Source: Isoetes taiwanensis (Eukaryota > Streptophyta > Lycopodiopsida > Isoetales > Isoetaceae). From it: 64,000 bases of DNA. The translations under genes were made by a program, and so were the position numbers. The notes below the pieces were generated by a model, which had not been told where the DNA came from, did no database searches, and saw only the letters and a list, made by a program, of their open reading frames with translations. The number at the start of each line of letters is the position of its first letter. Within the stretch, counting starts at the first letter, position 1. This document shows, piece by piece, positions 11,804 through 61,503 of this stretch. Where the stretch lies: NCBI GenBank assembly GCA_021234155.1, contig JAJEKV010000026.1, forward strand, positions 3,038,001 to 3,102,000, given 5' to 3'.

Positions 11804-12868
11804 TGAGTGCTGGATATATTTGGCTTGGATTGTTTTGTTGTTGTTTTTTTGCTTGCTTGCAGGTTGTGTTATGTAGAAACGGAGGTGGAAAAATGTACTT
11901 TGCTTGAGGTAAAGTGTGAAGCGTGCTGTAAAAAAGGGTGTACTTGAAATGGAAGTGGAAAATCGGGGGAAAAAAAAAAAGCCATTGAAATCTATATTGG
12001 TTGTCATATTCTTGCTTCCTTGCATCTGGATCATGCATAGGATTAGCCCATTCCCTAAGGGTTGACGAGCCTTATGATATGTGCACTAACGCCGCAAGGG
12101 GTTCAACCCCTTGGCCTGCTTTTCATTCTGAAGCTATTTCTTTTATGTACATGTTCTTTCTGTTGCAAGTTGAGTTTGGAGTGTAATGCTTAGACTCCTT
12201 GTATTTGGTCCACGGTTATATACTGCATACGGTCAACGATGTATATTTAGTTTATTGCCTATAAGGTGTGATTAACCATAAATTATAGAGCCAAGTAAGC
12301 GTTTGACCACGTCAAACAAGCTGTTAGATGGCTAGGGATGTTAGATCAAGGCACATGCCATGGAATATTCTGCAACACTAGGGCTCATAATGTAAGATAG
12401 GAGAGTTCAACAAATAACGATAACAATGACCCTTCAGAACCATATTGCTCTTTATTGACAAAATAATTGCTAAAGCTGGGCAACCCTTTGGCAACGCACA
12501 CTCGTTAGTTTCGTTACTTTGGTTAACAAAACACTTCTTCCATTTAAACCACCACTTTCTCCTTTATTTTTTTCTCCTCCAGGCCTATGCGGAAGACCAC
12601 CAAACCTGGGCCGAAGACAAACAAATTTCCCGGATCATATGAATCTGAAGATCTAGGAGAGGTAAACTCTAGGAGGCATTAAGTCTATTCTTTACCTTCC
12701 ATCAATTTTAAGGGAGATTTACATTCAATTGATGGTAGGACTGAAGCTACGAACATTTTTACGTTCTTAAATGAAGCCATTGGCTTTCCATTCCTGTTCA
12801 TTCTTTACGCATATAATATAATTGAATGGTTCAAACTGCCTTTCCAATTCTGAAGCTAAGGAAATGAA
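11804..12868. other. Intergenic sequence upstream of the PPR gene
   Basis: AT-rich DNA with no gene. Pyrimidine-rich sequence near 12550-12580 ending in 'ctcctccag' could be a 5'-leader intron acceptor for the gene that starts at 12869, but no experimental start is visible. Confidence 0.4.
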
Positions 12869-14761
12869 ATGGCTAATGCTAAGAAGAGATTTTATGGTTT
12901 CCAGATTAAAGAGTTCTCTAATCCAGCTTTACATAAAAGCCGTGAATATCTTGATCCTTCGAGCTATGTTAATCTCGTGCAAAGATGCACCAATGCGGGA
13001 AGTCTTCCAATCGGTAAGAAAATTCATGCTTACATTATCACAAAAGGCCACAGCTATGGTGTTTTTCTGGATAACCTGCTTGTGCATATGTATGGGAAGT
13101 GTGGTGCATTAGTGGAAGCAAAGAGATTGTTTGAAAGAATAAATCAGAGGAATGTGTTCTCCTGGAGCATTCTGATGGGATCATATTTGCATTCTGGTTG
13201 TTTAGATTATGCCCACAAACTGTTTGAGGAAATGCCAGAGCGCAATGTGGTATCATGGACTACCATGATCCAAGCTTATGCAAAGAATGGATATGACAAA
13301 GAAGCCCGTCAATTGTATAGACAAATGCAAGATCAAGGCGTTATACCAGATAGGGTTACACTCTTGACAGTGCTTGAGGCATGTAGTAACCATGAAGCTC
13401 TGGCTGAGGGAAAGAGAGCACATGCCCAGATTGTTGAGAATGACTTGGAAATAAGTATGGCTATTCGGACAGCTCTTGTCAACATGTACGCCAAATGTGG
13501 GGATTGGAAAAATGCAAAAGCTCTTTTCAGCAAGTCCCCTGAGAAGGATGTAATTCTGTGGTCTGCAATGATTACAGCATATACCCAGCATGGAAATGGC
13601 TCTGAAGCGCTCTCACAATTTTGGCAGATGCAGTTAGTAGGTTCCATGCCAAATGAGGTGACTTTTACCAGTATTCTTAGTGCATGTGCACAGCAGGGAG
13701 CTCTATTTGAAGGCAGGCTCATTCACTCTATCATATTGGATGATGCCCTTACTTCAGATGTTGCTGTTGGAAATGCACTGCTCAATATGTATTCCAAGTG
13801 TGGTAGCATGAATGATTGTCTGAACATCTTTGACAATATGATAAACAAGGATCTGATGTCTTGGAATATCATGATTGAAGCATTCGCCCAACATGGGTAC
13901 TACAATGAGGCCTTCCATGTTTTTGAAAGGTTGAGGCTACAGGGCATGACTCCAGACAAATGCACTTTTGTCAGCATCATCAACTCGTGCGCCAACAGAG
14001 CAGCATTCACCAATGGTAAACAGATTCACAAGTACATTTTAGAGATTGGGTTAGAAACCAATGATATAGGGACTGCTCTTGTGAGTATGTATGCCAAGTG
14101 CGGTTTCATTGGGGATGCACAAGCTGTCTTTGAAGCAAACGTTATCAAGGATGTGCAACTCTGGACTGCTATGATTGCAGCATACTCTCAATATGGGTTT
14201 GGGGAAGGGGCACTTCAGCTCTTTCAGCAAATGCATCTGGAAGGTGTTATGCCAAATATTGTCACATTCACAATTATTGTTTATGCATGTAGCCACTCTG
14301 GCTTAGTGGATGAAGGCATCCATTATTTCACTTCAATGAGTGCAGACCATAACATTACAGTCATACTGAAGCATTGTCATTGTCTCATTCATCTACTTGG
14401 CCGTTTGGGTTGGGCAGATGAAGCAGAACATTTGATTGATAGCATGCCATGTGAGGCTACTTCCTTGTCATGGATAACATTATTAGCGTCATGTTTTGAT
14501 GTAGAACAAGGCAGACGAGCTGCATTGAATAGCTTTGAATTGGACCCTGGAGATGCTACGCCATATGTGTTGTTATCAAATCTCTATGCTGCAGCAGGCC
14601 AGTGGAAAGATGCAATGCAGTTGAGAGATGCTGTAAAACAACAAGGTTTACAAGAAAGGACACTTGACAAAATGAGTGATTGTTGCGATATAAATCTTTC
14701 CATGAGATCAAACATGTGCACCTTGGCTCAAGTTGAATGGAAAGCAATGGCTGGAGAATAA
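12869..14761 (+). CDS. PLS-class pentatricopeptide repeat (PPR) protein
   Basis: A single uninterrupted 630-codon exon, as usual for plant PPR genes. Proteins of this class bind single-stranded organelle RNA, and many PLS members specify sites for C-to-U editing or other RNA processing in mitochondria or plastids. The sequence shows about a dozen tandem repeats from residue 30 to 520, with diagnostic strings such as NMYAKCGDWKNAKALF, NVVSWTTMIQAYAKNG and GKKIHAY. An E-like motif (YVLLSNLYAAAGQW) lies near residue 560. After about residue 590 the tail does not match the usual E+ or DYW domains; there is no PG-box-like segment and no HxE zinc site. An editing role would therefore need a partner deaminase, or the gene has lost its C terminus. 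ATG at 12869 is the first in frame; the other-frame ATG at 12822 gives only a short peptide. No clear targeting peptide is seen in the first 30 residues. This is the only clearly intact gene in the window. Confidence 0.93.
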   Translation: MANAKKRFYGFQIKEFSNPALHKSREYLDPSSYVNLVQRCTNAGSLPIGKKIHAYIITKGHSYGVFLDNLLVHMYGKCGALVEAKRLFERINQRNVFSWSILMGSYLHSGCLDYAHKLFEEMPERNVVSWTTMIQAYAKNGYDKEARQLYRQMQDQGVIPDRVTLLTVLEACSNHEALAEGKRAHAQIVENDLEISMAIRTALVNMYAKCGDWKNAKALFSKSPEKDVILWSAMITAYTQHGNGSEALSQFWQMQLVGSMPNEVTFTSILSACAQQGALFEGRLIHSIILDDALTSDVAVGNALLNMYSKCGSMNDCLNIFDNMINKDLMSWNIMIEAFAQHGYYNEAFHVFERLRLQGMTPDKCTFVSIINSCANRAAFTNGKQIHKYILEIGLETNDIGTALVSMYAKCGFIGDAQAVFEANVIKDVQLWTAMIAAYSQYGFGEGALQLFQQMHLEGVMPNIVTFTIIVYACSHSGLVDEGIHYFTSMSADHNITVILKHCHCLIHLLGRLGWADEAEHLIDSMPCEATSLSWITLLASCFDVEQGRRAALNSFELDPGDATPYVLLSNLYAAAGQWKDAMQLRDAVKQQGLQERTLDKMSDCCDINLSMRSNMCTLAQVEWKAMAGE

Positions 14762-30026: not shown

Positions 30027-31693
30027 ATTGGTATCAGAGCAGGATATATCTGAAGATCTCATTCAATATGTCAAGTCGATTTGGTCAAGTTGGTTGAGCA
30101 CAGTTGAAGTGTTCAAGGGTGGTGCAGGCTTCCAAGTATGGAAGGATTTCGTGAAGCATATTTTGGAAGTTGAGGACTTGTGGAATCTTGTGGATCCATA
30201 GAATGTAGATGCAGAGATCAATATTGCCTCCAGGTCACAAAGTTTTGTAAATCTGGCAGCTAACTCTGCTAATGCTAATGCAGGTGAAGAAAGTGCAGGA
30301 AGGGTGCTTGTGAGTGCTGGAGCAGCAAGGACAAGTTATGCAAGAATAAAAGAAGCCCAGGATATTATCTCTTGTATTATCTCTTGTAAGGTGAGTCCCA
30401 CTATCAGACTCAAGCTTAGAAACAAGTCATCAAGAGAGATGTGGATTTTTTTGGGCAAATAGTATGAAGAAAAGTCCTCTTCACAGTCCTCTTCACAAAT
30501 AGATCTACTTGAAAAAGAACTAAGAGGACTAAAATTGCAAGACGATGGAGACGTCTCTGAATTTTTCAATGATTTTAATAACATCATAGCAGACTTAGTT
30601 GGAGCCGGTGTTAATATTTCAGAGCAAATTCAGGTTCTACAAATCTCTAGATCTCTCATTGATAATGATCAACTAGCTTTATTCCTAAGAAACATAAGCA
30701 AAACTCGAGAGGAGGCAGAAAGAGTGTTAAGAACAGAATATGAACAAAGGAAAATAACTAAGGGTTATGAAGAATCCATTGAAGTGCTTTATGCTGGTAA
30801 GAAAGGTAAGAGAAAATGTTGCTATTGTCACGAGGCAGGGCCTTTTAAGAGTGACTTTCCCAAACTTAATAGCAATGATATTAGTTGCTACAATTGTGGA
30901 GGTAGGGCCAGGTGGCTGCAAAGTGTTCTTCACCAAGAGATTATGGTAGAGGGAGAGAAAAAGGAAAGACACTAGAGGAGGAAGGAATAATGCAGCTAGG
31001 GGTCGAGGAGGAAGGAGGTCGGCTGGCATACACATTTCTCAAGAACATGAACAAGAAGAAAAGGAAGTTAAAGATGAAAATGAGGTACCTTGTGCATTTT
31101 CTGTTCTTGATAATTTTGAAGGAGCTAATTCTAAGCATGACACATTTGTAGTTGATAGTGGAGCTGAGAGATCAGTAGTCCAATCTACTGATCTCCTCAA
31201 AAAAATCAAGCAAGCAAACACGAGAAATATCCAAGTAGGAAATGGAGAATCGCAAGCAATTGAGGGGAGTGGCCTGCTGCAACTGACAGACTTACAAGGC
31301 AACATAATAGATGTTGAGAGTGTTCTGTGTGTTCCAAGTATAATAAAAAATCTGATTTCTGTTAGTCAGTTAGTAGATCTAGGTTATAGAGTCAATTTTG
31401 ACTCTAAAGCATGTAAGATCTTTCTTGAGAATGAATTAAAATTCTTGGCAAAGAGATGTGGCAATTTGTTTCAAATGAAAAGATCCACTTATCAAAGCAT
31501 AAACTCAGTAAATGTTCATGATGTTGAACTGTGGCATAACAGGCTGGCCCATACAAACTGCAAAAACATCAAGTACTTGGCTCAAAAGGGATGGATTCAT
31601 TGCAATGATGTCAAAATGGACAAATTTATTTGTGAAGGATGTGTGCTTGGGAAGCTAAATAGGCTGCCTTTTGCAAAGGTCAAACATCCATAG
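29442..31693 (+). mobile_element. 3'-truncated Ty1-copia retrotransposon
   Basis: The 5' LTR is 29442-30026 (TGTTGAGAATTG...CCTAACA), directly followed by the primer-binding site at 30028-30039. The gag part spans about 30100-30975 and contains premature stops. Of its two zinc knuckles, the first reads CCYCHEAGPFKSDFP and has lost the canonical His/Cys spacing; the second starts CYNCGG. The protease active site VDSGAE is at about 31154, followed by a GAG-pre-integrase segment (LWHNRLAHTNCKNIKYL ... CEGCVLGK) ending at the stop at 31693. The integrase core, reverse transcriptase, RNase H and 3' LTR are absent, so the copy is dead. Confidence 0.88.
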
Positions 31694-31951
31694 CCTCATA
31701 CAGTTTTTCACATATGGTCTTGATTGTCAGGCATAGCTTTTGGCATTCCAAACATTTTAATTGATTTTCTCTGTCTTTCCTGTCACTAACTGCCTATGCG
31801 CGCATAGGGTGTAAAATCGCTAGTGGGGTACAACTTTTGGCGAAGCGTTTAAGCACTTTAAGTGCTGAAACTCGCGGACGTCGAAGCCCGTCACGCCCTT
31901 CTCCCTCCTTTTCCCCTGGGCGCGAAAACTCAGTTCAGTGTTTCACTGTTG

Positions 31952-33344
31952 ATGATGGAGGCATGGAGCGCGGATGATTTTCACAGCATCAGAGGTCTGT
32001 ACAATTCGGGGGTGAAGCCCCACGAGGAAGAAGCTTGGTTGGAAAATAATGTCACGGATCGAGATTGGGATTCTGTTTGGACAAAGAAGTTGAACAAGGG
32101 AAAGATAAAATGGCACTGTGCAAAGGAGCATCTTCAAGAGAAGTTGGAAACACTCTGCCGAAAAATCTACAAGAATTGTCACAACAACGGTAAGAAAGCA
32201 ACCGGCCCTTTGCTTTTATGTTTGAAAAATTGCACTAGATCAATACTTGCACCTGAGGAACACAAAGTAAACTGGGCTACATTTGCTGTGCAATGCCAAA
32301 GATACCACAACAATAGACAAGTGAAAACAGAGGCAGATGTTGTAGCACATGTAAGGAAAACTGAAATGAAGGCAAAGCCAAAGGTGGCAGCTGGATCAAA
32401 TGATATCAGTGCATGTGATGAAAACATAAAAACCTTAGAGAATGCAGTACAGGAGATTGGAAAATCAGTTTTACTTATCACAAAGAATCTGGAAGCAGTA
32501 GGAAGTGAGCTGAAAGGCAATGAGAAGGCCTCTGAATTACAGAAAATGATGTTGGAAGAGGCTGAGAACAGTTTAAGACAGGCCACAAATGATTTGGCTA
32601 CAAAACAGGAGGAGTTCAAGCTTAATCCAAACCGTGTGAGTTGGAGGCGTAAATTAAAGATTTGGAGCAGACTTGTCCGGATGGAAACTTGCACACGAGA
32701 ACAAAGTACAAAAAGCAATGAACCCTACCTCTGTTAATGAGCAGGTCAAATGTAAACTCAAACTTGAGGAGGAGTTAAAAGTTCTCGAAGAAGAACAGAG
32801 ACTTCTGCAATTCTACATAAACAATTTGTGGAAGCTGAAAATGGATACTCCTGCAACATTTAGCATCTCTACTATTATACGAGATAAGTTGTTAGTGGAA
32901 GATCCATTTTATACATGTTCAGCATGTGGTCTGGAATTCACTAAAGCTTACAGGTTAAGTTTAGCACTGAATTGCCAACATGAGTATCATATAGCTTGTT
33001 GTTCATTGTTGAGAGGAGGACAATGTATTCATGGTTGCCCTGGAAAGGTGCCAGAGGGTGTATTTGACGAGCTAGGTTTTGGCCATGTTGCAGGTGCTTC
33101 AAATAGTACACCAAAAAAGGATGTGTTAATCCGTCCTGCAATTGAGGTCTCACCCTTCAGGGTTCAAAGAAGGACAATGGTGCCATTTGAAGATGCACAA
33201 CACCTGCAAAGTCCTATAGGAGTACAGTCAATTGTGACTGATTTGAATGCAACAGCAGAACCACCACCACCAGTCCAAGAAGTCGAAGCTATAGAAGAAG
33301 TCAGTAAACCAAAGACCGGTTGTAAACACGGCACCGGTTTGTAA
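31952..33344 (+). pseudogene. Coiled-coil protein with RING-like zinc finger (frameshifted)
   Basis: The reading frame opens upstream, but the tandem ATGs at 31952/31955 (MMEAWSADDFHSI) are the likely start. The first part, to about 32640, includes a long heptad-rich coiled coil (ENIKTLENAVQEIGKSVLLI). The frame then shifts and continues with a second coiled coil (KLEEELKVLEEEQRLLQF). After it comes a Cys/His cluster at about 32918-33040, with C-x2-C (CSACG), C-x-H-x2-H-x2-C (CQHEYHIAC) and a final C-x3-C (CIHGC). This spacing resembles a RING-type finger, which in other proteins binds E2 ubiquitin enzymes. The region around 32640-32700 needs at least one frame change, so this copy is broken or has an unseen short intron. 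It is the first coding region inside the 31807 transposon; a related tail continues at 33360-33545. Confidence 0.55.
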
Positions 33345-33359
33345 ACACAAAGACCAGTT

Positions 33360-33663
33360 GTGGAAAAAACAACAGACCCGATTGTACACACTGAAGCACC
33401 TAAGGAAGTTGAGGGAGTAATTCCATCGGATGAGGGCAACTTGGGTGAATATTTGCCAAAAGGAAAGGGCAGAAGAACAAAGAGGGGTAAGCTGGAGGAT
33501 GGGAAAGAAGTTGTTCAAAGCTACAAGAAAGAGAACAAGAAGTAGCTATGCCAAAGATGCGGGAAGCGGTCTCAATCATGAGACCACACCTATCGAAGTG
33601 TGTTCAAAGAAAATGCGATTCAGGCCCTCGTGGTTTCAGGTGAGCCTGATGTTCAACAAGTGA
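33360..33663 (+). pseudogene. Basic/acidic linker region following the RING-like protein
   Basis: A frame at 33360-33545 (for example EVEGVIPSDEGNLGEYLPKG, then KGRRTKRGKLEDGK) follows the stop of the preceding region by 15 bases. It looks like a low-complexity, lysine-rich continuation. A second frame to 33663 overlaps it. It probably joined the RING part to the phosphatase part in an ancestral gene, but no intron structure proves this. Confidence 0.35.
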
Positions 33664-33927
33664 TTGCTGCCCTTAACAATGGGTCAAGTGGGCATTCTTT
33701 GGGCAAGCCCGAAATAAACAATGAATATTATTGATTTTCTTTTGTTGCATTCAATTGTAGGATTACGGTTCAATCTGTTAGGTCGAGAGAATCCTGCTTG
33801 ATACTGAAAGGTTTCCACATTCAACCCATTTTTCATTTTCATCTTCATCTATTTATTCATGTAGTAATTCTGTTGTGCGGTGTATTCGGGATGTTCCAAC
33901 GTACTAAATATTGATTTGGCAAAGAAA

Positions 33928-34547
33928 AGATAAATTCATTGTCTTGGATTTAAATGGTGTGTTGGTAAAAACATTTGGTGCAAATGAACACATACGCTTG
34001 GAAGCGGGGATTGACAATGACATACACTAGCGTAAAGAAAGTGATATTCAGACCGAAGCGGTGTTCTTCTTGAAGACTTTGTTCTGAAGTGTTGTGTTGG
34101 TATATGGTCATCAATGCAACTCTCTAATGTGGAAGATGTCTTTGCAAGTACTATGTTCAGTTTGAGGGACGGATTTCAATTTGTATGGGGACGGGGAAAA
34201 ATGTGTGCGCAGACCGTTTTCACCACCCTAACAAACCTGGCAGGCATCAAATCATGATGAAGCCACTTGGAAAAATATATGAGTCATACCCAAGATTCAA
34301 AGGTAAGACTTTGCTTCTTGATGATTCATTATACAAGACTTACCTTAGCACTCCCTGGAAATTTCTGCGGGTACCTGCATTCAAGATGGATGTCCATGAT
34401 GAAGTGCAGGCCAAGACTGAGGAAAAAATGAAGTTACTGGTGAAGAACACACACAGATACAAGCCTTGGCCTAAGACAGATAGAAAGATTATGAAGCTAT
34501 GCTTGGAAAGACTTTCTGGAACCAGTTGCAGTTCTGCAGGTTTATGA
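33928..34547 (+). pseudogene. Decayed FCP1/NIF-type phosphatase domain
   Basis: Three segments match the order of this HAD-superfamily family, whose members dephosphorylate proteins such as the RNA polymerase II C-terminal tail. The nucleophile motif appears as KFIVLDLNGVLV at about 33935, in which the usual second Asp of DxDG is Asn. The motif II region reads CCVGIWSSMQLSNVEDVF at about 34090, followed by GFQFVWGRGK. The C-terminal part reads KPLGKIYESYPRFKGKTLLL and then DDSLYKT at about 34260-34335, the conserved LLLDDS block. At least two frame changes (one near the G/A run at 34186-34200) and in-frame stops separate them. It lies inside the 31807-39391 transposon, downstream of the RING-like gene in the same direction. 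It may be a captured host gene or a normal component of this transposon family. Confidence 0.65.
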
Positions 34548-34559
34548 AGGAGGAATTGG

Positions 34560-35256
34560 AGAAGGTTTATGGTGATGACGATTGTCATTCTCCATGATTA
34601 TTGGCCTGTTTGTCATTTATTTAGGCCAAGGAATCCTACACTTTTCATGTACCATCTTTATCTTAATTTAAGAATGTTTTTGCTATATTGTTTATGTAGT
34701 TCAATGCAGACTTTCTATAAGTTTTTGCTATATTGTTTATATCTACTTCAATGCTGACTGCAAGGGATGCATAAAACTTACCAAGTGCTTAAACAAAAAA
34801 TTGCCAAAACACTAGGTAAAACATATATGTTTAGTACTAGGTGCGATTAACTTCTTGTTATGCTATATAACTTGTTTAAAGATAGTTTGTTTATTGCATG
34901 TGTGCTCTTGTGTTCCAGTGCTTACTCACAAGCACTGCTGAAACTAATTAAAGTGCTTAGTGTTTGAGCTGGAGCACTGTTACATTAAAGCAGAATATGG
35001 ACTGTACAAGAATTCAATGTTTTGCCACCTGCATGGATAATAGAAGTAAGAACATCAAATGAATTCATTCTTTACTTAATACAAAAAACAAAATGTGATG
35101 CTGAAAAGAAGTAGATGAGACAAAAAAACTTCATATATTTGATAGACGAAAAGAACATAAGAAAATGACAAACAAAGAACAAAAAACAAAGAACGAAAAG
35201 AACATTTGATACAGAAAGTGGTAGAGACAAAAATCTTTTTATATTAACAAAGTTTT
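34560..35256. other. Spacer between convergent genes of the transposon
   Basis: AT-rich, with an internal repeat of 'ttttgctatattgtttat' at 34678 and 34724 and several AGTGCTT/AAGCACT words (34778-34970). Similar words occur near both ends of the element (31850 and 39330). Confidence 0.5.
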
Positions 35257-35850
35257 TTACAAAAAAAAGGCCTTCAGGCCAGTGTCTTCAGGGGGTGTCT
35301 TGGGGGTGGCTTTGAGCGGGGGTGGTGTCTTCGGGGGTGGTGTCTTGGGGGTGTCTTGGGGGCTTTCTGGCTCACTCCACACATTCTCCTCCAGTTCCCG
35401 CCTCCTCTGCCACTTGGTGGGGCGCTCTTCGTAACAGCTCTCGAAAACCAGTTGTTTTTCTTCTTCTTCATCCGCCTCTTCCTCTTCCTCTTCCTCTTCC
35501 TCTTCATCCTCTTCATCCTCTTCTTTCTCAGAATTGTCCTCTTCTTCTTCAGAATTGTCCTCCTCCTCTTCTGCTTCTTCTTCTTCTTCTTCTTCTTGCT
35601 CCACTACCTGCTCGACTTCTGTAAACAAGAAAATCAACAATGTTAGAACAAAAGAAAAACAAAACAAAAAAAAACTGCAAAACAAAATAATACCTTCTTC
35701 TTCCTCTCGATCTTCAGTGTCTGTTCTTGAATCTGGACGAACCGGCTCGAAAAAGTAGGCCCCCCTGTATTGCGGAGCGACGTCCGCATCTTCTGGCACC
35801 TGTGTAAGCACATACTCTGGTGCTTGGTTTCCGCTGCATGCAGAGGCCAT
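35257..35850 (-). CDS. Acidic Glu-rich coiled-coil protein, two exons
   Basis: Exon 1 is 35850-35694, starting MASACSGNQAPEYVLTQVPE. Exon 2 is 35618-35257. The junction has matched phase (donor GAAGAAG/GTATTA, acceptor TTGTTTACAG), giving about 172 residues. The middle is almost pure Glu with some Asp, a strongly charged segment typical of histone- or chromatin-binding or disordered proteins. The C terminus has TPPPKTPPPLKATPKTPPED repeats. The sequence without the intron is uninterrupted, so this may be the one intact gene in the transposon. It is convergent with the upstream phosphatase region. Function unknown; an accessory protein for transposition is only a guess. Confidence 0.6.
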   Translation of the reverse strand: MASACSGNQAPEYVLTQVPEDADVAPQYRGAYFFEPVRPDSRTDTEDREEEEGIILFCSFFLFCFSFVLTLLIFLFTEVEQVVEQEEEEEEEAEEEEDNSEEEEDNSEKEEDEEDEEEEEEEEEEADEEEEKQLVFESCYEERPTKWQRRRELEENVWSEPESPQDTPKTPPPKTPPPLKATPKTPPEDTGLKAFFL

Positions 35851-36343
35851 TGCAAAGGAAATAAACAGAGCGTGAGGCGAATTGCAAAGGAAATGCCGTC
35901 TTAAGGCGGTAGCGTGAGGGCGTAAGAAGAGCTTAAATCCTATGATTACGGGTCTAGTGCTTAAATCCTATGCTTAGGCGCGTCAGTATACGAAAAACCT
36001 GACACGCGCCAGAACAATTAATTCGTAACCAGGCTTAAATATTTCGTACGACCATTGGAATTGACACATGTCACATCGAGGAAATGCCTTGACAATATAA
36101 TTTTGCCAAGAATGTTGGGATAGTGATGGTATCAAAATAAATAATTGAATGTTATTCCAATGTCACAAATGTACATTCTTAAACAACAATTCAATCTTCA
36201 TTTCAAAGTACGTGTCCATGCACACCACCCTTGTGCATCCTCACTATTATTAATATATATACAAATGTGTGCTTACGTGCTTAGGTGCTGGAACAACAAA
36301 TCACTTGAAAAGAATGACATCAATTTGGTTAAGTGTCAAAGAA

Positions 36344-39026
36344 TTACAATGTTATTGGGAGACTGGCCATAATTTTTTCATGGGTCTCCTGTGAAATTTT
36401 GTACATGTCTGTGCCTTCAATTTTATCCATATCAATTTTAGAATATCTTACCATATGGCTGTGCACGGAGGCTTCGGGTTGTTTAGTGAGCAACATATAC
36501 TTGAAATTACCCAAGAATTGATAATACAATCCACTTAAGATAACCTCATGCACTCCAAATTTTTGCCCCCATCCATCTTTGTATGAATCTTCAAGTGTGC
36601 ATTTGGGTTCTGTGCACTTGAGGATGTAGAAGTCCACACCCTCTGAATTGTCTACCTCAGCATTCACTGCAAAATTGTCACCTACCTCTACCAAATTACT
36701 GATCCATTCATTGGCTTGTTCAAGAGTCTCCTTTTTCTTCTCAACTCCTGGTTTTAAGTCAGTTACCTCCCACTTTCCAAATCTACCTGTATTGATGCAG
36801 GAGTCCCAATTATGATCCATGCAAAACAAGCAGAAACATGACAGGCATCTATGAGCAAGCCTGTTTGGTCTACTCCTGCTGACAGGTCTGATACAGTGAA
36901 TCTTCTTTGTGCCTTTAAGTGTTTCAATTTCATATTCTTCCATGTTTGCCACAACAGCAGGTTCAATTTCCCAAAAATATCTTTTGATCTCATCTGTTTC
37001 ATCAACTGGTAGACTGCTGAAATATGTACACAGAAATTTTACAATATCTTTAGCATGCCTCAGTTGCACACCATTGGGTTTGAGTTGTTCCTTACTTAGC
37101 AGCCTTTTGATAACAGCACCTGCACCATCATGTTCACCTTTACCATGAGCAGTGGCAAAGTAGTTCCACACTATTTCCTTGTCATTCATTGTGAAGTACC
37201 TGCCTAAGAAAAAAAAAAGGTTTTCCTGACTTGAATTGTGATGAGCAGCCATCACTCCAAACCCAATGCTTCTCATACTCTATTTCCTGTTCCTTAAGCC
37301 ATGCAACATGCTTTTGTAGGCAGTGTTCCACAAATAATGAGTCATGCACTTTATCATCAGAAATGTAAAAGTGAGTCTCTTTTATGATCTTCCTACCATT
37401 GTTGAGTCTATTCCTGATCTGCTCCAATCTTCTGTTCTTTTTTTTCTTCTTTGGACAGTCTTCTTCTGTCTGCACAGGAACAGGAATATCAGCACTTTTG
37501 TCATGTCTATATGTTATGTGAACAAGTATAGAAACTTGGTCTGTATGCCAGTGCATTGACTGGGGCTCATTCTGGATCTTGATGCTGTAATTTTCTGCAA
37601 AGTCAATAACAGATACAATTGTATCTTCTGGAAATGATGACACACACTGTTTAAACTGATTGGCCTGCCAATGTGCTATGTAATTGTGTGGAACAAAATC
37701 TGATATTACCTTCTTCACATCCTCTTGAAACTCTTTGGGACTTCTCTCCTTTTAAACTAATCTCAAGACAGGTTTGTACCTCAAAGCCTTTCTTGGATCC
37801 CCGAATTCTCTGTCCTGGTCCACAGGTTGCTTTTCAAATGTCTTCCAAGTAACTAGTAATGAACCCGTGCCATCTATTTCCTGTGGACATTTTCTAATTC
37901 TATCCAACCCACATTTTTTACACGCCAACATCAAGCAGTTATGATCAAACCACTCCTCATCATCACCTTTGCTGCAGACCACTTGTCTCCATAAATCACT
38001 TGTGCACTTGATTGTATGCTCCTTGGCTGCACATTCGGGCCAGGGCCACAAATCTCCGCGATGGCGGTTGCAATTGTCATGAACTCCACCCGATTTTCTC
38101 GGTTGTTCAATCCCTGCATGATGTATTCAAATTTCAAGTGGTAAATGCAACATCATGTATGCCTCTCACGCATCCTCCTTACAAAACTCGGTTTCAACCT
38201 CTCAAAAGTCTGCAATGCAATTTTGATATGAGGATTCTCCTCTCTAAACCTGAGGTAGAATTGCAACTGTAGGGAAATCGTGTGAATGCCAAATAAATGC
38301 TACATATAATGAACCCTACAATATAGGATGAATACTTACTTGGCTGACTTCAAGAAGGTGAATTGGATGTTCCATCTTTATTTCTGTCTCTGATACATAC
38401 TTCCTCACGTCTTTCTTGTATGGAGAAACTCTTGTATTTTCTGTCCAGAACTTGATAACAGCTTCTCTATTGTGATCTAACATGCTATCCATCCGCTTCC
38501 TCCTCCTGAACATTGACCAAGGTCCTTCCCCTTTGTTAGCTTGCACCCTTCTTTGAAAAGCATTTGAAATTGTTTTTCTGGGGATGCTGAGCAATCTGGC
38601 CACTTCTGCTTGATTCAATGGCTTGACACCATTTCTACCTGCTGCTGCCATTATCAGGGTGGACTTCCTTGCACGAAGCATGTCATGATTCCTCTCAAAC
38701 TTATGTTCTTGCATTGTTTCCTTCAAATTCTTCACCATTTGCTCGGCCATAGTAACCTGCTTAGATTTCTTTATAGAAGCAATTGGTAAATCCCTTGCCC
38801 TCCAAAGAAGACTGTCAAGGATACGGCCTTTGTCATTGTCATCAACATTTGTACTAATTTGGTTGAATACTTCATAAATTTCTCCTGAAATTTCTCTTAT
38901 TCTGCGGTCACTCAGTCTCAATTTCTTATTCTTCTTTGAAGGCGAATCTTTAGAAGGGGAATTCTTCTTCATTGCTACTTTCTTTGCATACAATCTCTGC
39001 CTGATCTCTCTTCCTTGCTGCATCAA
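36344..39026 (-). pseudogene. Transposase-like protein with HTH and RNase-H-like DDE/D signature (disrupted)
   Basis: On the minus strand, the first segment (39026-38341) is basic and has a helix-turn-helix-like stretch (LNQAEVARLLSIPRKTISNA), consistent with DNA binding. It ends in a GTAAGT donor; the next exon starts at 38266 after 'CCCTACAG'. A Cys-rich region follows (CKKCGLDRIRKC, about 37900). The catalytic-like part reads IVSVIDFAENY (about 37610), WVWSDGCSSQFK (about 37240) and ATAHGKGEHDGAG (about 37135), plausible Asp, Asp and Asp/Glu positions of a DDE nuclease. The C-terminal part runs intact to the stop at 36344. Disruptions are an in-frame TGA at 38153-38155, a frame change near 38000, a TAA at 37752-37754 and a shift at the 10-base A run 37209-37218. 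Multicopy proteins with DFAENY/SDG/HGKG signatures occur, as far as I recall, in several animals, where they are unnamed. Confidence 0.65.
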
Positions 39027-39391
39027 TGGCTCTGTAAATTGAACGGGGAGAGGAATTGGGTTTCATCTATCCCGAATTTCTGTGTATTGCAAAATTGGTG
39101 AGGGCAAATTGTTGAATTTCGGTTCAGGCAATTCTTGGAAACAATTAGTCCCTCTATTTTGCTTGAATTCAAGATGGGTTAGCCCACCATCCAGGAATAT
39201 GGCGGGCTACAGACATTCATGTTTCCGGCACCAAACATGTTCATGATTCTCTCAGCCTGTCATTTGACGGGCGCGCACCCTACATGTCAATACTTCAATC
39301 ACGCACGTCGTGTTTAAAACACACCAATTTTAAGCACTTGTAAGCGGCGTCCGGACGGTGATTTCTGCTACCCAGTACCGATTTTGCACCC

Positions 39392-41156
39392 CATAGCGCC
39401 TTGTGATTAATTTTGCTTCAGGCGCTCAATAAGAGCCTTCATTTTGTGCTTTTTGTTATTTGCTAACTTTGTTATTTACGAGAAACCTAATGGTATTTTC
39501 ATTTTGCCAATTTCCTGCACGTAGTTACTTTTTATAAATTTAACTTTTATTTTTATACCCTGTTTTAATGCACTACAATTAAGAAGATGTCCATTTTTTT
39601 TAAATCTAGGACCCAAAAACGACACTCAAAATAGTAAATTGAGGGCTATTTTTTAAAATGACCCCCAAAAGTAGCAGAATTTAAGGATATTTTAGGGAAT
39701 CTTTGGAAGATTCTTTTTATTAGTGCAAACGCAAGTCATTAGTGCATTTGCTAGGTCACCGTGTTGTCATTGCAAGTTGAGTCAATATTATAAATCCCTG
39801 AAAGAGGAAGTATAGTTAGAAGCATCTAAATGCATATTTTCATGATGAATAGATACACAAATTACGAATAAGGAAACTTTTACAAGGCTTAGCAAAACAT
39901 TCAGCTTTTCCATAAATATTATTTAAAAGGCTGCACTTATAACTTTACAAGAAAGTAGTGCGGTGATATCAGCACCGCATGTTGTAAATTGTCCTAGGAC
40001 AGAGGATTTACTTCAACAAAGGGAACTGGATAACATATACGAAGACTTACGAAGTTCTGGAATGATGCCTACACATTATTGGACTATCAGCTAATAAAGA
40101 AGAATTGGCAAGTGGCAATGATTTAATGTTAATGATTGTCTGCTTAGACATCCCCTATGGTAATGTGAAAAATATTTTACAATACATCATCATATCTACA
40201 TCTCTAAGTTTCTTCTTTAGTGTCTGATAGTACTCTGTGAACTCAATGGTTTTTAAAAGTTGAATGTATAGTAAATGTGGAATAGAAAGTGTTGAACCCC
40301 TATAAGTAAAAGAAACCTTAGACACGATAGAGATATTGAAGTCCAAAAGAGAATGGATGAACCAAAATACCTGACTGGAATAGAACCCTAACCGCGTAAG
40401 GGACACCCCATCTTGGACGTGGATTTTTGGCTGTCTAGAGTTTTAAATTGCCCTGGTGAAGCAAGTTCCAATCAAAGATAAGAGCAAGCAATGCCAAATT
40501 GTCCACCCCCACTTCATATTTTTCAGTACGGGACTAAGATGATACCAGTGTATCAGCAAATATTATAGCAGAAAATCAAGAAGTACCTGTACATGCATAC
40601 ATGAAGGCTAACTGAAGCAACCTTTCACTTTGAACAACTTTAACCCAACAACTTATGTAGCATTAGCTGCCTTATTTATCGCAACAACTACTTTATTCAC
40701 ATGATCATCAACATGTGGCACTTCTAGTGCTCGCTCTGTTGCACCTCTAGTTCTTACATATTTTAAGGCGAAATCAAACAGTTGAAATAGATAAATAGAG
40801 CAAGAGCATCAGGAACGCACAAGGAGAAGTATGAAATACCTGAACAACATTAGAACTCTGCATGACTCCTGTATTCTTCATCTCTTATAACACCAAGTTG
40901 CAGTCTCTCTACATCCTTGAATCTAGAAAAGGAGAATGGCCAGATAATGTAGAATCTGCATAACAAACCTAAGAGTATGTCAAAGGAAGTGACAACGGCT
41001 TTCATGTGGCATAACTTCCAACCTATAGGTGATGTCAAAAAGGAAGCATGATGCACAAGATATTGTAATAGACATTTATATCAAGTTCAACAACCACGAG
41101 TCATGCAACATACTCTGTGGGAATATCTAAAAATTGCAATTTATCCACCAATCCAC
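39392..41156. other. No gene recognised
   Basis: AT-rich sequence after the transposon. The minus frame at 40155-40406 and those near 40850 show no motif. No RNA gene seen. Confidence 0.5.
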
Positions 41157-56607: not shown

Positions 56608-59428
56608 TCAATATTCTTCACCAAAAATAGTATCATCTGCTGTATCAATATCAACCGGGTTAATCTTACTGAGGTCAATGGGTGTCTCAGTATCTTCTAC
56701 AACATTTTCCCCGGATGCTGTGGTGTCTCCTTCACCAGCCTGCGATGTCTCTCCACCAGCACGCGATGTCTCTCCTGTAGGAGTCCCAGTCAATGTCAAA
56801 ACTGGACGAGTGTCTATGGCTGGTGGTGCAAGCAAGGGATTTAGGACGTTGTCAATTCTTCCTAAAATCCCTAGCATGCATTGGATCTTTTTTGCATCAT
56901 GCTCATACGCCACACTGCTCCTTTTTAACTGCAGTGATGCCCTAGTGAAAGCCCCAGCAGAAAAAAAATCCAGAACAAAGTTACCTGGAGGGCAGAGCTT
57001 TTCGACAAGTTATGCGGTTGTAGCAGGACCAACCTGCTTGTGAACCAACTATTCCCCTTCCATACCTTGCCATCCGTATTTGAATCTGTCCCTCAGGAGC
57101 TTGTTAGCCATATTATCTGTCTTGGCACCAATAGCCTCTTTGGGGGTCTTAGGAACTTCAGGTGCTTTCCGGGGATGTTCACCATAAAACCTAAAATCCA
57201 GGTTTTTATCAGCCTGAGCTTGGGCAGAGATCCTGGTGGCTAGAACCACAGCTGCTGGTTCTTTTATGCCACCACCCGTTGACCACCCACTTTCCTCTTC
57301 ATACATGCCTAAGAAAACTCTAGATCTGGATTCTAGTCTCTCCAGGGCAGTACCGAAGAGACTTGTATGTTCTGGCCTGGCAAAACATATAATCCAGTAG
57401 GTCTCTACATCTGTCATCTTAGAAGCAGCATCAAAGAATTTGGCCAAAGTGGCGGGATCCCAAATCGGAGTAATTTGCCTCGCATCTAAACAGATCATGC
57501 TGGCACGCAACACGATCGGATCCTGGACAATCCCAGCACTAGAAACGCACTCCACATAAAATCTTTTCAAGTCGTTCTCGTCCTCGGGCTTAAGAATCTT
57601 ACGGATTGATCTGCCTAATGAGAAGGGCACACATGACCATGGACGCTCTCTTTCAGAATTCCGTCCGACACCCAACTATGATGTATCACACTCCAAGATA
57701 GGAGGGTTGAATCTGGGAATCCGTCGGACACCTTTCTCAAGTCCTCAAACTTTCTGTACTTGATGCCAAGTTCATCATGGATGTAGTGGAGAATCTCCTT
57801 CTTCATGTAGGCAAGAATCCTCAAGTTCTGTGTTCTTGTCTTGAAAAAATTATCACCCTTATAATCCGATGTGACCTTTACATCAATGTCCCCACTGATG
57901 GCTTCCTGAAGGACAGTCCTGCAATCTTCATAATCTAGGCCTCTCATGCATCTGAGGTAGTTTTTGCTGATGTAGTCATTGTCCTTTGCCCAATTGACTG
58001 CTATGGATTGGCCCTTGTTATCCTTCAGCTCCCCCTTTTTCCATTTATTCCACATTTGGCGAAAGAGAGCGTAAATGTCGTCTGGCATGAAAACAAACCT
58101 GTTGACATCTTTGGTATGCTTCCCCCTGAGAATCTTGTCAACCATTTGCAGGTAATGCTGAAAGGCAAACGAAATATGTTAGAGCTTGAGTGTAGTAAAG
58201 TAGGCCAAATGGCGCCGCTGCGCCATTTGGCAGCAAACAGCGCGGCGGCGCCATTTGGCATTAAATGGCGCCGCTGCGCCATTTGCCATCAAATGGCACC
58301 GTTGCGCCATTTAATGCCAAATGGCGCTGCGGCGCCATTTGGCCTTCTTTGGCCTGTAAGGCAAATAGGTGGATACATACCTTGTATTCGTCGCTTCTCG
58401 ATTGCCCTTTTCCTGCTGGTGCTAGTTTGCCGCACTCCTGGTATTGCCTACGCAGGTGGTGTATTTGATCTGCGTAGGGCTCCTTACACACCGTCCTGGC
58501 TACGATGTCATTGACATCCACACTGAGCTGAAGAAGGTCCAAGTCACCAGAAAGAACTCTGCAGATTCTATAAGTGTAAATCTTTCTGAGTTCTATTCTG
58601 GCATCTTCTGTCCCCAACTTCTGACACACGAGCTGAGCGGCTGAGACAGAATGGTTGCCATTGATGATGTAGAACCTCCTACCCACCAGGTCAGATTCTT
58701 GTGACCATGGTACGAGCTGCTTTGTATCTGGATCAAAGGGCACCACATCTGCCAGCGTGAAGAATGGATGGGGATCTTCAGCAAATGACTTGCACAGTTT
58801 CCTAACATGTTCAGGATTTACAACTCGTGCCATCATGTTAGGAGGTGCCTCTTCCATATCCGTCTCGGCACTCCTCTGCCAACTCCGTCTCGTTAGGCTG
58901 TATTTTTTTTAGAGTTTCCTCTGCCAACTCCGTCTCGGCATCACGGTCCATCTTCAGCTCAGAAGGCACCTCCAAACTTTCCATTTTCTTCTGCTTTCTG
59001 ACCCTCATCTCCTTCTTTGTTTCCCTCTTCCTTTTAACTGGAATGTTATCAGCCGTTGATGCACCGCCTTTACCTCTCCGATGTGGGGAGGATGTTTTAG
59101 TATCACTAATGGTTCTCTCTGAATCCTGTTTGGGCGGGGACCTGATAGGAGAACCGATAGGAGTCCTGATAGGAGGAGACTTGGAAGGTGACTTGGGAGG
59201 AGACTTGGGATTTTCCTCGTCTTTCTTTTGATTCTCTTCCTCATGCTCTGTCCCTTCTATATGGAGTGTTCCTTTCTTGGGTTTGGCTTGCCTAACGTTT
59301 GGCCTTCTCTTCCCATCCTTCTTTGTAATCTCCGCTAGAAGCCAGGTGCTGTCCATTAGAGCAGGCATATTACCAGAGGTCTTGGCCCTGACAACATGTG
59401 ACACTGAGTTCTTTGATGCGTCCATGGC

Positions 59429-60921
59429 TGTGACGTCCCCTACTCGTATACGATGCCCGCGCCATATACAAACAGGAGTTCATCCCCCAAGACCAGCTCC
59501 ACAGCGATACATGGCCCTCCACATATCATCTTTGTGACCGCCTAGAGTCCACGGTGGGAAGAGTGAAGGGGTCATTTTACCCGTCTCCCTCGGGCCTACC
59601 TAGGCTGCGAGGCGTAAACATACACGCGTCGGTAACATAACATCATATATCCACCTCGAAGGGTGGCACATCAACATCTGCATAGACAAAGATCAGGCAC
59701 AATACATGGAAGTTCCTACCCAAGGCTCGGACTCTCGAGGGGATGGTGACAAGCTTGGGTCTCCGAGTTCAAGGCATGAATCATGACAATGGATTGGGCT
59801 GGCATAAGAGCATGGCTTAGGGTTGTCCACTCCATCCGCCCCTCCCCGTGCACACTTTGCGAGTAGGTTGAAAAGTGTTGGGACTGATCTGTAGCCAGCC
59901 CGGGTGCATAGCCAAAGGGCTATTCACGGGTTACATCTCCCAGTCCCGTTGGGGCGGTAGGGATCACTCCCTCCGAGAGATCTACATGCTGACCCAAGGT
60001 GACTAGAGGGCTTTGCCCTTATTCGACTTAACCCATGGAAGGTGAACACCACCCCACGGGTGTCGAGCCCATGCCTTACCCACACTCGGTGGCAAGCCAT
60101 TAGACCTAGTCACTCGATCCCGGTAGACTTTACACGCCCGGTCGGTCAAAGGGTCGAGAACACGAACCTCACTCTAAGCCCGGTCTGGCCCCTTCACCCA
60201 AACCCGGTGGGGCTCCACAGGCAGAGCCGAAATCTAGTAATGCACTAAGAGGGACTAGCTAGGAGCATCATCTACTAAGCTTTAAGTCTCTACCCCCCTT
60301 CCCAATACAATGAGTCCACAGAATACATCCGTCCATCATATCAACATAAGTAAATAAGAACTAATCTGATTCATAGAGTTAGGTTCTTTAGTTAGAGTCA
60401 ATCTCAGGATCTGCTTGGCTGCTAAGGGTGATTTAATAGGCTAAACCTACTGGTTCGAAGGCTGGAATAAGGTTTAGGGTATTCAATCGACCAAATACCT
60501 GATCCCTGGTTCCTCCTCTCGATCCGGCGTCCATGTCTACGTTTACGCCCCGAGATGCGGTCGAAAGGATGATCGACAAAGCCGGGCGCTTGGCGGCGGT
60601 GGGAGTTGGAATTGACTCCTCGGTAGCGCTGAATCCAGACTCGGAAGGTTTGTGGGCGAAAAAGGGAAAGTTAGGGTTTGGTGCCTTATGTAGGCTATCG
60701 ATTAGGTTTAGGGTTTCCATGACCCTTGGTCTACCTTTAATGGGTTAAAAGGTCTAAAAGTCGCACATTGCTAAGTGTGCGCACCATTGCAAGTTGCCCC
60801 CTAGGGCGCCCTTGCTTGGGTACATGTCGGCGTACACGTCGATTGGGACGGCGTAATGCGGCGTGGCGGTCTTGATGCGATTATCGTCCCGGGACCGTTA
60901 TCTTTGTGTTGGAACGTCACA
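59429..60921 (-). mobile_element. Solo LTR, 1493 bp, with 5-bp target duplication
   Basis: The ends are TGTGACGTCCCC (left) and GGAACGTCACA (right), giving TG...CA in either orientation. ATGGC flanks it at 59424-59428 and 60922-60926. Orientation (minus) follows from relatives at 687-6681 and 62758-63130, where the primer-binding site and the polypurine tract are visible. No internal retroelement sequence is present, so recombination between LTRs has removed it. It interrupts exon 2 of the ParB-like gene. The open frames inside it (60042, 60433, 60533) are not genes. Confidence 0.9.
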
Positions 60922-61503
60922 ATGGCTGAACGGATTATGCCAAATCCTCTAAGGAGCTCGACCATGCCATTAATAGCAGCAGCCTCTTTGCTTTCATATG
61001 AAGGCAACGGCCAGCCTTTTCTTTTGGCAGAGAGTGTCTGGTCCTTGATGCTGGATTCCATCATCTGTGGATCATAAAACTGCCAGTCCATGCCGTACAG
61101 ATCAATGGTGCAGTTCACGGGATCCTGCTTTTTCACCTCCCGCATGTTGACAATGATGCCAAGCTGCATCACAACGTCTTGTTCAGCACTTCTCGACTTT
61201 GTGAGGAGGCAAAGTTCTCTCCTCTTGTCCCCCTTTGTAGGGTCGACACCTTCCTCCAGAGGTATCGCCCTGACAATTTCCATGCACCATGGCCTTCCAG
61301 CCATGACCACGGTCTTCTCCGTCACAACGTTGCTGGGCTTGAACAACGAAGCTTCACAAAAAAACAAACAAATCAACATTCAAATCATGAAACGCCAACC
61401 CAATCCAAAAAGACGTGCAGAAGTAAATGTACAGGCAAACATCACGGTGGCGCCCTTTACATGTGAACAGCGCGGTGGCGCCATTTACATTTGAACAGCG
61501 AGG

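Follow-up and report, generated by a model that had tools for sequence, protein, structure and literature searches.

A multigene DNA transposon family in Isoetes taiwanensis with a putative DDE/D transposase and probable accessory RING-like and NIF/FCP1-like proteins

The stretch analysed here, called the window, comprises 64,000 nucleotides of the Isoetes taiwanensis genome (contig JAJEKV010000026.1, positions 3,038,001 to 3,102,000). Positions below are those of the window unless a separately fetched stretch (L numbers) is named. A DNA transposon with many copies in the genome lies at 31807-39391, and the window copy is a decayed member, in which the RING-like, NIF and transposase genes are all interrupted. 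Its layout is convergent: gene A (coiled-coil/RING-like) and the NIF gene lie on the plus strand, and an acidic protein gene and the transposase gene on the minus strand. The original prediction had described four coding regions in this arrangement. The layout is real, but the frames 31862-32737 and 32658-33344 are pieces of one broken gene, gene A, which is a single frame of 492 amino acids (aa) in a related family (family 2, L030). The predicted inverted ends with CATA on both sides proved exact to the base. The features of family 1, to which the window copy belongs, are as follows.

31803-31806, no strand: left target-site duplication (TSD) CATA, from the sequence
31807-39391: whole element, 7,585 bp, boundaries exact to the base
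31807-31819, plus: left terminal inverted repeat GGGTGTAAAATCG, from the sequence and genome copies
31952-33715 (3' end approximate), plus: gene A, broken here, from frames and tblastn; intact 492-aa homologue at L030:6464-7942, minus
32916-33038, plus: RING-H2-like cysteine/histidine cluster of gene A, C-terminal, after an N-terminal domain and a coiled coil
33868-34597 (5' limit uncertain), plus: NIF/FCP1-like HAD-fold gene, broken here, from tblastn of the intact L020 copy
35257-35850 (noted also as 35257-35967), minus: acidic protein gene with a predicted intron; family 1 only, sequence varies
36344-39066, minus: putative transposase gene, disrupted in this copy by frameshifts and a stop codon; helix-turn-helix at the N-terminus, Cys/His cluster, RNase H-like core, C-terminal domain
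37127-37135, minus: putative third acid, either the Glu or the Asp of E-H-D in HGKGEHDG; invariant in alignment A3, precedes a core helix of the model
37251-37253, minus: putative second catalytic Asp (WSDGCSSQF); invariant in A3, after strand 4 of the model
37602-37604, minus: putative first catalytic Asp (VIDFAENY); nearly invariant in A3, on strand 1 of the model
38267-38339, minus: predicted 73-bp GT-AG transposase intron, from the sequence and open frames on both sides
39348-39357, no strand: subterminal palindrome CGTCCGGACG, from the sequence
39379-39391, minus: right terminal inverted repeat GGGTGCAAAATCG (reverse complement), from the sequence and genome copies
39392-39395, no strand: right TSD CATA, from the sequence

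The termini of the window element read GGGTG...CACCC. Queries of 154 bases (left end) and 157 bases (right end) were searched in the window's own genome (1,658,258,908 bases in 1,110 contigs). Both ends are repeated genome-wide at about 99% identity (40/40 each, for the best 40 of 482 left and the best 40 of 545 right first-look candidates), and the window ends are therefore not chance. Within these two sets of 40, ten left ends, that of the window included, have a right-end partner less than 20 kb away. Co-occurrence of the ends at this spacing had been set beforehand as a refutation test, and all ten paired left ends show the expected order and orientation at 6.6-7.75 kb, start to start; the 30 left ends without a partner among the best 40 right ends are uninformative either way.

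We fetched nine other end pairs with their flanks (L001-L009, whose aligned pieces share 85-97% identity with the window), seven copies in which exon 1 of the transposase is intact, and five further stretches. The genome search with both ends, as originally proposed, thus returned other copies with 4-bp duplications: among the 14 family-1 copies with both ends read, located by exact end motif or by search, the TSD is perfect in 12 (window, L001-L007, L009, L014, L019, L020) and has a one-base mismatch in two (L008, TTTT/TTCT; L021, AAAT/AAGT). Outside this count are copies with one end found (L010, L011, L012, L013, L015, L017) or neither (L016, L018). The duplications seen are CATA, TACA, AGAT, TTTT, AAGT, TGAT, AATG, TTAT, ACAT, TAGT and TGGT, and TTAA is none of them. 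Beside one family-1 copy lies a frame that we take to be a Helitron-like helicase (L017:755-2395).

One copy, L003, sits inside a Copia gag-pol frame, and excising the insert together with one TTTT leaves an open frame of 132 residues; the same operation on L008, with one TSD, leaves 131 residues open. Joined around a single TTTT, the L003 flanks agree at 291/291 bases with a Copia copy that has no insertion there (C1028:19256562-19256852), with 39 further scored places at 84-99% identity. The empty site, which belongs to L003 and not to the window copy, thus has a single copy of the 4-bp target, so that the second refutation test set in the original prediction, on a paired empty site, was also passed. 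Gag/pol frames, presumably of Copia type, also adjoin the window element (30463-31693), and the Copia copy into which L003 inserted is related to them.

The NIF gene and the transposase gene travel together. A transposase match lies within 20 kb of 72/150 NIF matches, and 66/150 have the expected order, strand and distance, whereas about 0.7% would be expected by chance to have any transposase match within 20 kb. The 66 are a lower bound drawn from the best matches among those listed, and the count took in 150 of 155 NIF matches (the other lists, 150/157 and 125/134), mainly second fragments or matches outside the listing being left out. The NIF gene is mostly 2.2-3.0 kb from transposase exon 2, and the left end is 2.3-3.2 kb from the NIF gene in all 15 pairs found. 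A NIF profile search of the genome gave 151 matches; those listed all exceed the cut-off, and many of them are intact frames, dispersed rather than clustered, that score 65-80 bits. At least 25 further NIF loci, beyond the 66, stand beside this transposase type; the 25/87 is a lower bound and not a rate, since 87 of 151 NIF and 110 of 299 other matches were used, partly chosen for a visible partner.

Related families carry the same genes. Four high-scoring NIF loci were fetched, of which L026 and L027 have the same transposase type, and L028 and L029 have no match to it. Pieces of the L026 and L027 transposases are 38-57% identical to family 1 (core, 49-57%; C-terminal part, 38-44%); for L026 and L027 in that order, NIF identity is 35% and 30%, and RING-region identity 51% over 37 residues and 48% over 54. 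L026 and L030 lie 260 kb apart on one contig and may be a segmental duplication. Three further families were read.

L030 970-7895: family 2 element, TSD TTAT/TTAT, one copy
L027+L032 1797-9547: family 3 element, TSD TATA/TATA, 29 bp identical inverted ends, one copy
L034: family 4, same three genes, ends not found

In families 2-4 the RING-like, NIF and transposase genes have the same order and orientation as in family 1, and their NIF is 26-35% identical to that of family 1. All six ends of families 1-3 begin GGGTG.AA; the subterminal palindrome has its core GTCCGGAC repeated close to the right end in family 2, while family 3 has the variant GTCCGAAC at the corresponding place. In a second copy, L031, the left side is inverted, and no TSD could be read. 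The predicted large multigene transposon family with host-like regulatory proteins is supported by duplications, linkage and four families. The idea that its genes travel together holds for NIF and transposase, and in the four families for the RING-like gene too; it fails for the acidic gene, which was not found in families 2-4, given that their NIF-transposase gap is just about 0.3-0.5 kb (L030, L027, L034). Copies of family 1 diverge strongly in their acidic gene (window and L021 versus L020:3700-4413), with the predicted intron and C-terminal end looking alike, and window positions of about 34.8-35.95 kb are unaligned in five of the nine fetched end-pair copies (L001, L002, L007, L008, L009). 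Either this module evolves fast or it is exchanged.

Motif conservation and a structure model strongly suggest that the large minus-strand gene encodes a DDE/D transposase, with a helix-turn-helix at its N-terminus and a core like that of RNase H. Intact exons occur in L015, L017 and L018 (the last with small deletions). Exon 1 has a predicted helix-turn-helix, with an HTH_23 match in L036 (E 0.0017) below the cut-off. In the core alignment A3 of 22 sequences, SDGC and GEHDG are invariant and IDFAEN nearly so. The ratio of nonsynonymous to synonymous change (dN/dS) of the core is 0.08 (dS 2.2, near saturation) and 0.16 in two pairs, a third being saturated. The core of L036 (253 aa) was modelled with AF2 (pLDDT 66.6, pTM 0.67). 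Its strands and helices follow one another as in RNase H: D60 lies on strand 1, D165 comes after strand 4, and E204/D206 precede a core helix. The fold modelling originally suggested thus gave a topology like that of RNase H, in which D, D and E/D occupy their customary positions; the fold scores are moderate. VIA-align lists 50 rows, of which 49, at Z 8.6 to 6.5, show Argonaute-type domains or retroviral integrases and one a designed protein. Because Z under 8 can be generic, we regard the RNase H fold as well supported only together with the conserved acids.

Matches of the core to viral structures (best E 1.2e-4) include RNase H and terminase-like folds and many unnamed ones, and point to no relevant family of transposases. 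The fold searches singled out no known superfamily, and absence there excludes nothing. An MphB match of P0003 was stray (18.8 bits against a cut-off of 615), and four motif-scan stretches of genome contigs (L022-L025) were taken as chance, the element proteins having no tblastn match in them at E 0.01. There are presumably animal proteins with a similar HGKG..DG motif.

By its profile scores, the phosphatase-like protein is a true NIF/FCP1 domain. The intact copies in L020 and L021 (253 aa) match Pfam NIF at 2.1e-13 and 1.5e-14, the NIF proteins of families 1-4 score 50.7-72.4 bits with PF03031 (curated cut-off, 21.8), and UBLCP1 is the sole match among PDB sequences at E up to 1 (1.1e-5). 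In family 1 the open frame lacks a Met ahead of the domain, so its coding sequence may start in another exon upstream or in gene A and be joined by splicing. Active FCP1-type phosphatases have the catalytic motif DxDx(T/V), and in HAD phosphatases the second Asp of DxDxT is the general acid/base. All nine repeat-borne NIF sequences aligned have DxNGV in place of DxDxT. The element protein keeps the first Asp (the HAD nucleophile), the Lys and a later Asp, with Asn for the second Asp. DLDET or DLDHT stands in the three high-scoring host-like loci read (L058-L060). Given the Asn, a pseudo-phosphatase that binds phosphoproteins, or else a slow enzyme, is a likelier reading of the protein than an ordinary C-terminal domain (CTD) phosphatase.

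A NIF gene with DxNGV also occurs in another repeat type (L057:1226-5931; C1038:8375600-8382000), beside long frames of no known type and with no match to this transposase found. In L028, L029 and L057, none of which has such a match, NIF identity is 22-28%. Elsewhere in the window, a run of minus-strand frames (57049-61379) includes two that are weakly similar (26-31%) to frames of L057, and is possibly another multigene element. Four frames scanned there had no Pfam match over the cut-off; one frame of this group has what we take to be a ParB-like look, as do frames of L057, which gave no Pfam match. An intronless frame of 633 aa at 12860-14761 is presumably of pentatricopeptide type, as suits a plant.

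With the termini, the 4-bp duplications, the empty site of another copy, the copy number, the linkage and the gene set of four families all observed directly, we put the probability that this is a multigene cut-and-paste DNA transposon family, with the window copy decayed and the RING-like and NIF proteins as accessory factors, at roughly 0.8. In this scenario, the transposase would bind the GGGTG termini and perhaps also the subterminal palindrome, cut both ends, and join them to target strands four bases apart, as in DDE/D cut-and-paste with a 4-bp stagger. The coiled-coil RING-H2-like and NIF/FCP1-like proteins would then be factors of the element and not passengers, a weaker part of the model. 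NIF could recognise host transcription or silencing factors and the RING-like protein could provide ubiquitin transfer or scaffolding, so that the transposase stays expressed. That the two proteins act on host transcription or silencing factors to this end is the likeliest role, at somewhat less than even odds, and a direct part in the transposition complex is somewhat less likely.

Several results weigh against this account. The accessory role of the RING-like and NIF proteins is putative. The RING-H2 ligand pattern, Cx2C...CxHx2Hx2C...Cx2-3C, is visible by eye in families 1-4, and Pfam RING models stay below their gathering scores in all families scanned (best, zf-RING_2 at 2.6e-4, 21.6 against 27.3 bits). 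The transposase reaches no Pfam or NCBIfam family cut-off, in line with the original view that its superfamily could not be placed, and finds nothing better than E 0.25 among PDB sequences. Foldseek against the PDB is weak (best 3.7e-3; a SETMAR transposase domain at 7.9e-3; unrelated folds also listed), VIA-align Z under about 8 may reflect a common arrangement, and a first structure model, of most of exon 2 from five similar sequences, was useless (pLDDT 29.9). Relatives were not found in IMG/VR or GTDB genome contigs with a few peptide and DNA patterns, or in phages with tblastn, where distant ones could escape. Recent copy pairs give a mixed and indecisive dN/dS (RING 0.66; NIF 0.36, 0.57 and 1.36, with very few changes behind the highest value), and between families NIF has dN of about 0.7 with synonymous sites saturated.

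The original prediction left open whether the element encodes or captured these proteins. Under passive (Pack-type) capture, the NIF and RING-like genes would be pieces of host genes acquired a single time and carried as cargo; plant MULE and CACTA elements are known to carry host genes (PMC10741241). The broken genes of the window copy and the high-scoring NIF loci resembling host genes would suit it. However, three genes recur in equal order and orientation in four families whose NIF is only 26-35% identical to family 1, NIF frames are intact in many copies, and the repeat-borne DxNGV (9/9) differs from the DLDET/DLDHT of the three host-like loci. We therefore consider capture improbable: the presence of NIF and RING-like genes across four diverged families favours a conserved set of accessory genes over it. 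Intact NIF frames at 34-37% identity between families suggest long-term constraint, and a gene set kept by distant relatives suggests that the extra proteins aid the survival or movement of the element.

Accidental juxtaposition of genes from separate, nested elements is a highly improbable explanation. Nested transposable elements are common here, for instance in L029 and L033, whose Copia-like and gypsy-like frames were named by eye. The steady spacing of NIF and transposase, of left end and NIF, and of left and right ends, and an empty site with one TSD, refute this for the ends, the NIF gene and the transposase.

Membership in the Sola superfamily, with accessory genes, has close to an even chance. 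The mostly AT-rich 4-bp TSD, the putative DDD/E-type core, the length of 7-8 kb and the short termini fit, Sola elements have a DDD transposase, a 4-bp TSD and a size of mostly 2-9 kb and are known in the moss Physcomitrella (PMC10741241, PMC9033089), and an accessory gene is present in a Sola1 family of a brown alga (PMC12477816). However, the likeness comes from description (TSD, size, core) and not from sequence comparison, and other superfamilies also make 4-bp TSDs. More tentatively, the elements may form an unnamed plant superfamily that as a rule combines a DDE/D transposase, a coiled-coil RING-H2 protein and a NIF protein whose active site is altered to DxNGV, as a device acting on host phospho-signalling or ubiquitin pathways; a NIF of this kind is carried by at least one repeat type besides.

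There is a wider interest in such elements, as transposon-borne accessory proteins can reveal how elements evade silencing. A NIF and RING-like pair kept over deep divergence offers a concrete, testable case in a lycophyte. Counts of phosphatase genes in this genome also need care, with at least dozens of NIF loci (66, and at least 25 others) adjoining this transposase.

Compared with the FCP1/SCP/UBLCP1 phosphatases (Pfam NIF; PDB 3shq), the element protein shares the NIF domain, the first Asp, the Lys and a later Asp, but has DxNGV instead of DxDxT and is transposon-borne. MuDR, En/Spm and VANDAL are autonomous plant elements in which a transposase is joined by a second protein for full activity or anti-silencing. 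The present family resembles them in this pairing but differs in TSD (theirs, 7-12 or 3 bp), in termini and in second proteins, which are unrelated. Kolobok and Sola3 target TTAA, which the TSDs listed above do not include; the same holds for piggyBac, whose target is also TTAA. PMC10741241 gives 5'-TG...CA-3' termini for Ginger, where ours are GGGTG...CACCC; CACTA/CACTG termini with a 3-bp TSD for CACTA/EnSpm, where ours are GGGTG and 4 bp; and a 7-12 bp TSD for MULEs, again unlike 4 bp. Multi-open-reading-frame MULEs are known in plants (PMC10741241). The accessible part of the Isoetes taiwanensis genome paper, in which repeats were found with LTR_retriever and RepeatModeler, does not name this family (PMC8566536). 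Literature searches, with subscription papers mostly outside their reach, returned unrelated items at most on SDGCSSQF or HGKGP transposases, on DNA transposons with NIF/FCP1 and RING, and on Isoetes DNA transposons.

By 4-bp duplication and size, Sola appears to be the nearest named superfamily, likened by description. Sola1 and Sola2 share with the present family 4-bp TSDs, a DDD/E-type transposase (putative in the present family), a length of several kb, variable termini and an occurrence in moss; gene A and NIF are unmentioned in the portions of the Sola descriptions available (PMC10741241, PMC3627910). The duplication is seen in family 1 (12/14 perfect, two with one mismatch) and in the single copies of families 2 and 3, and the modelled topology and conserved acids fit a DDD/E RNase H core, at moderate fold scores. 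A similar organisation is seen in Sola1-1_Ec32 of Ectocarpus, also a multigene element, in which transposase and accessory gene lie on opposite strands; it is 21.5 kb long, and its accessory protein is ParB-like plus DNA methyltransferase, not NIF/RING (PMC12477816). Given that this Sola1 element with its ParB/methyltransferase gene exists, multigene elements with accessory genes are already known, and the present family would represent a further case and not a new category.

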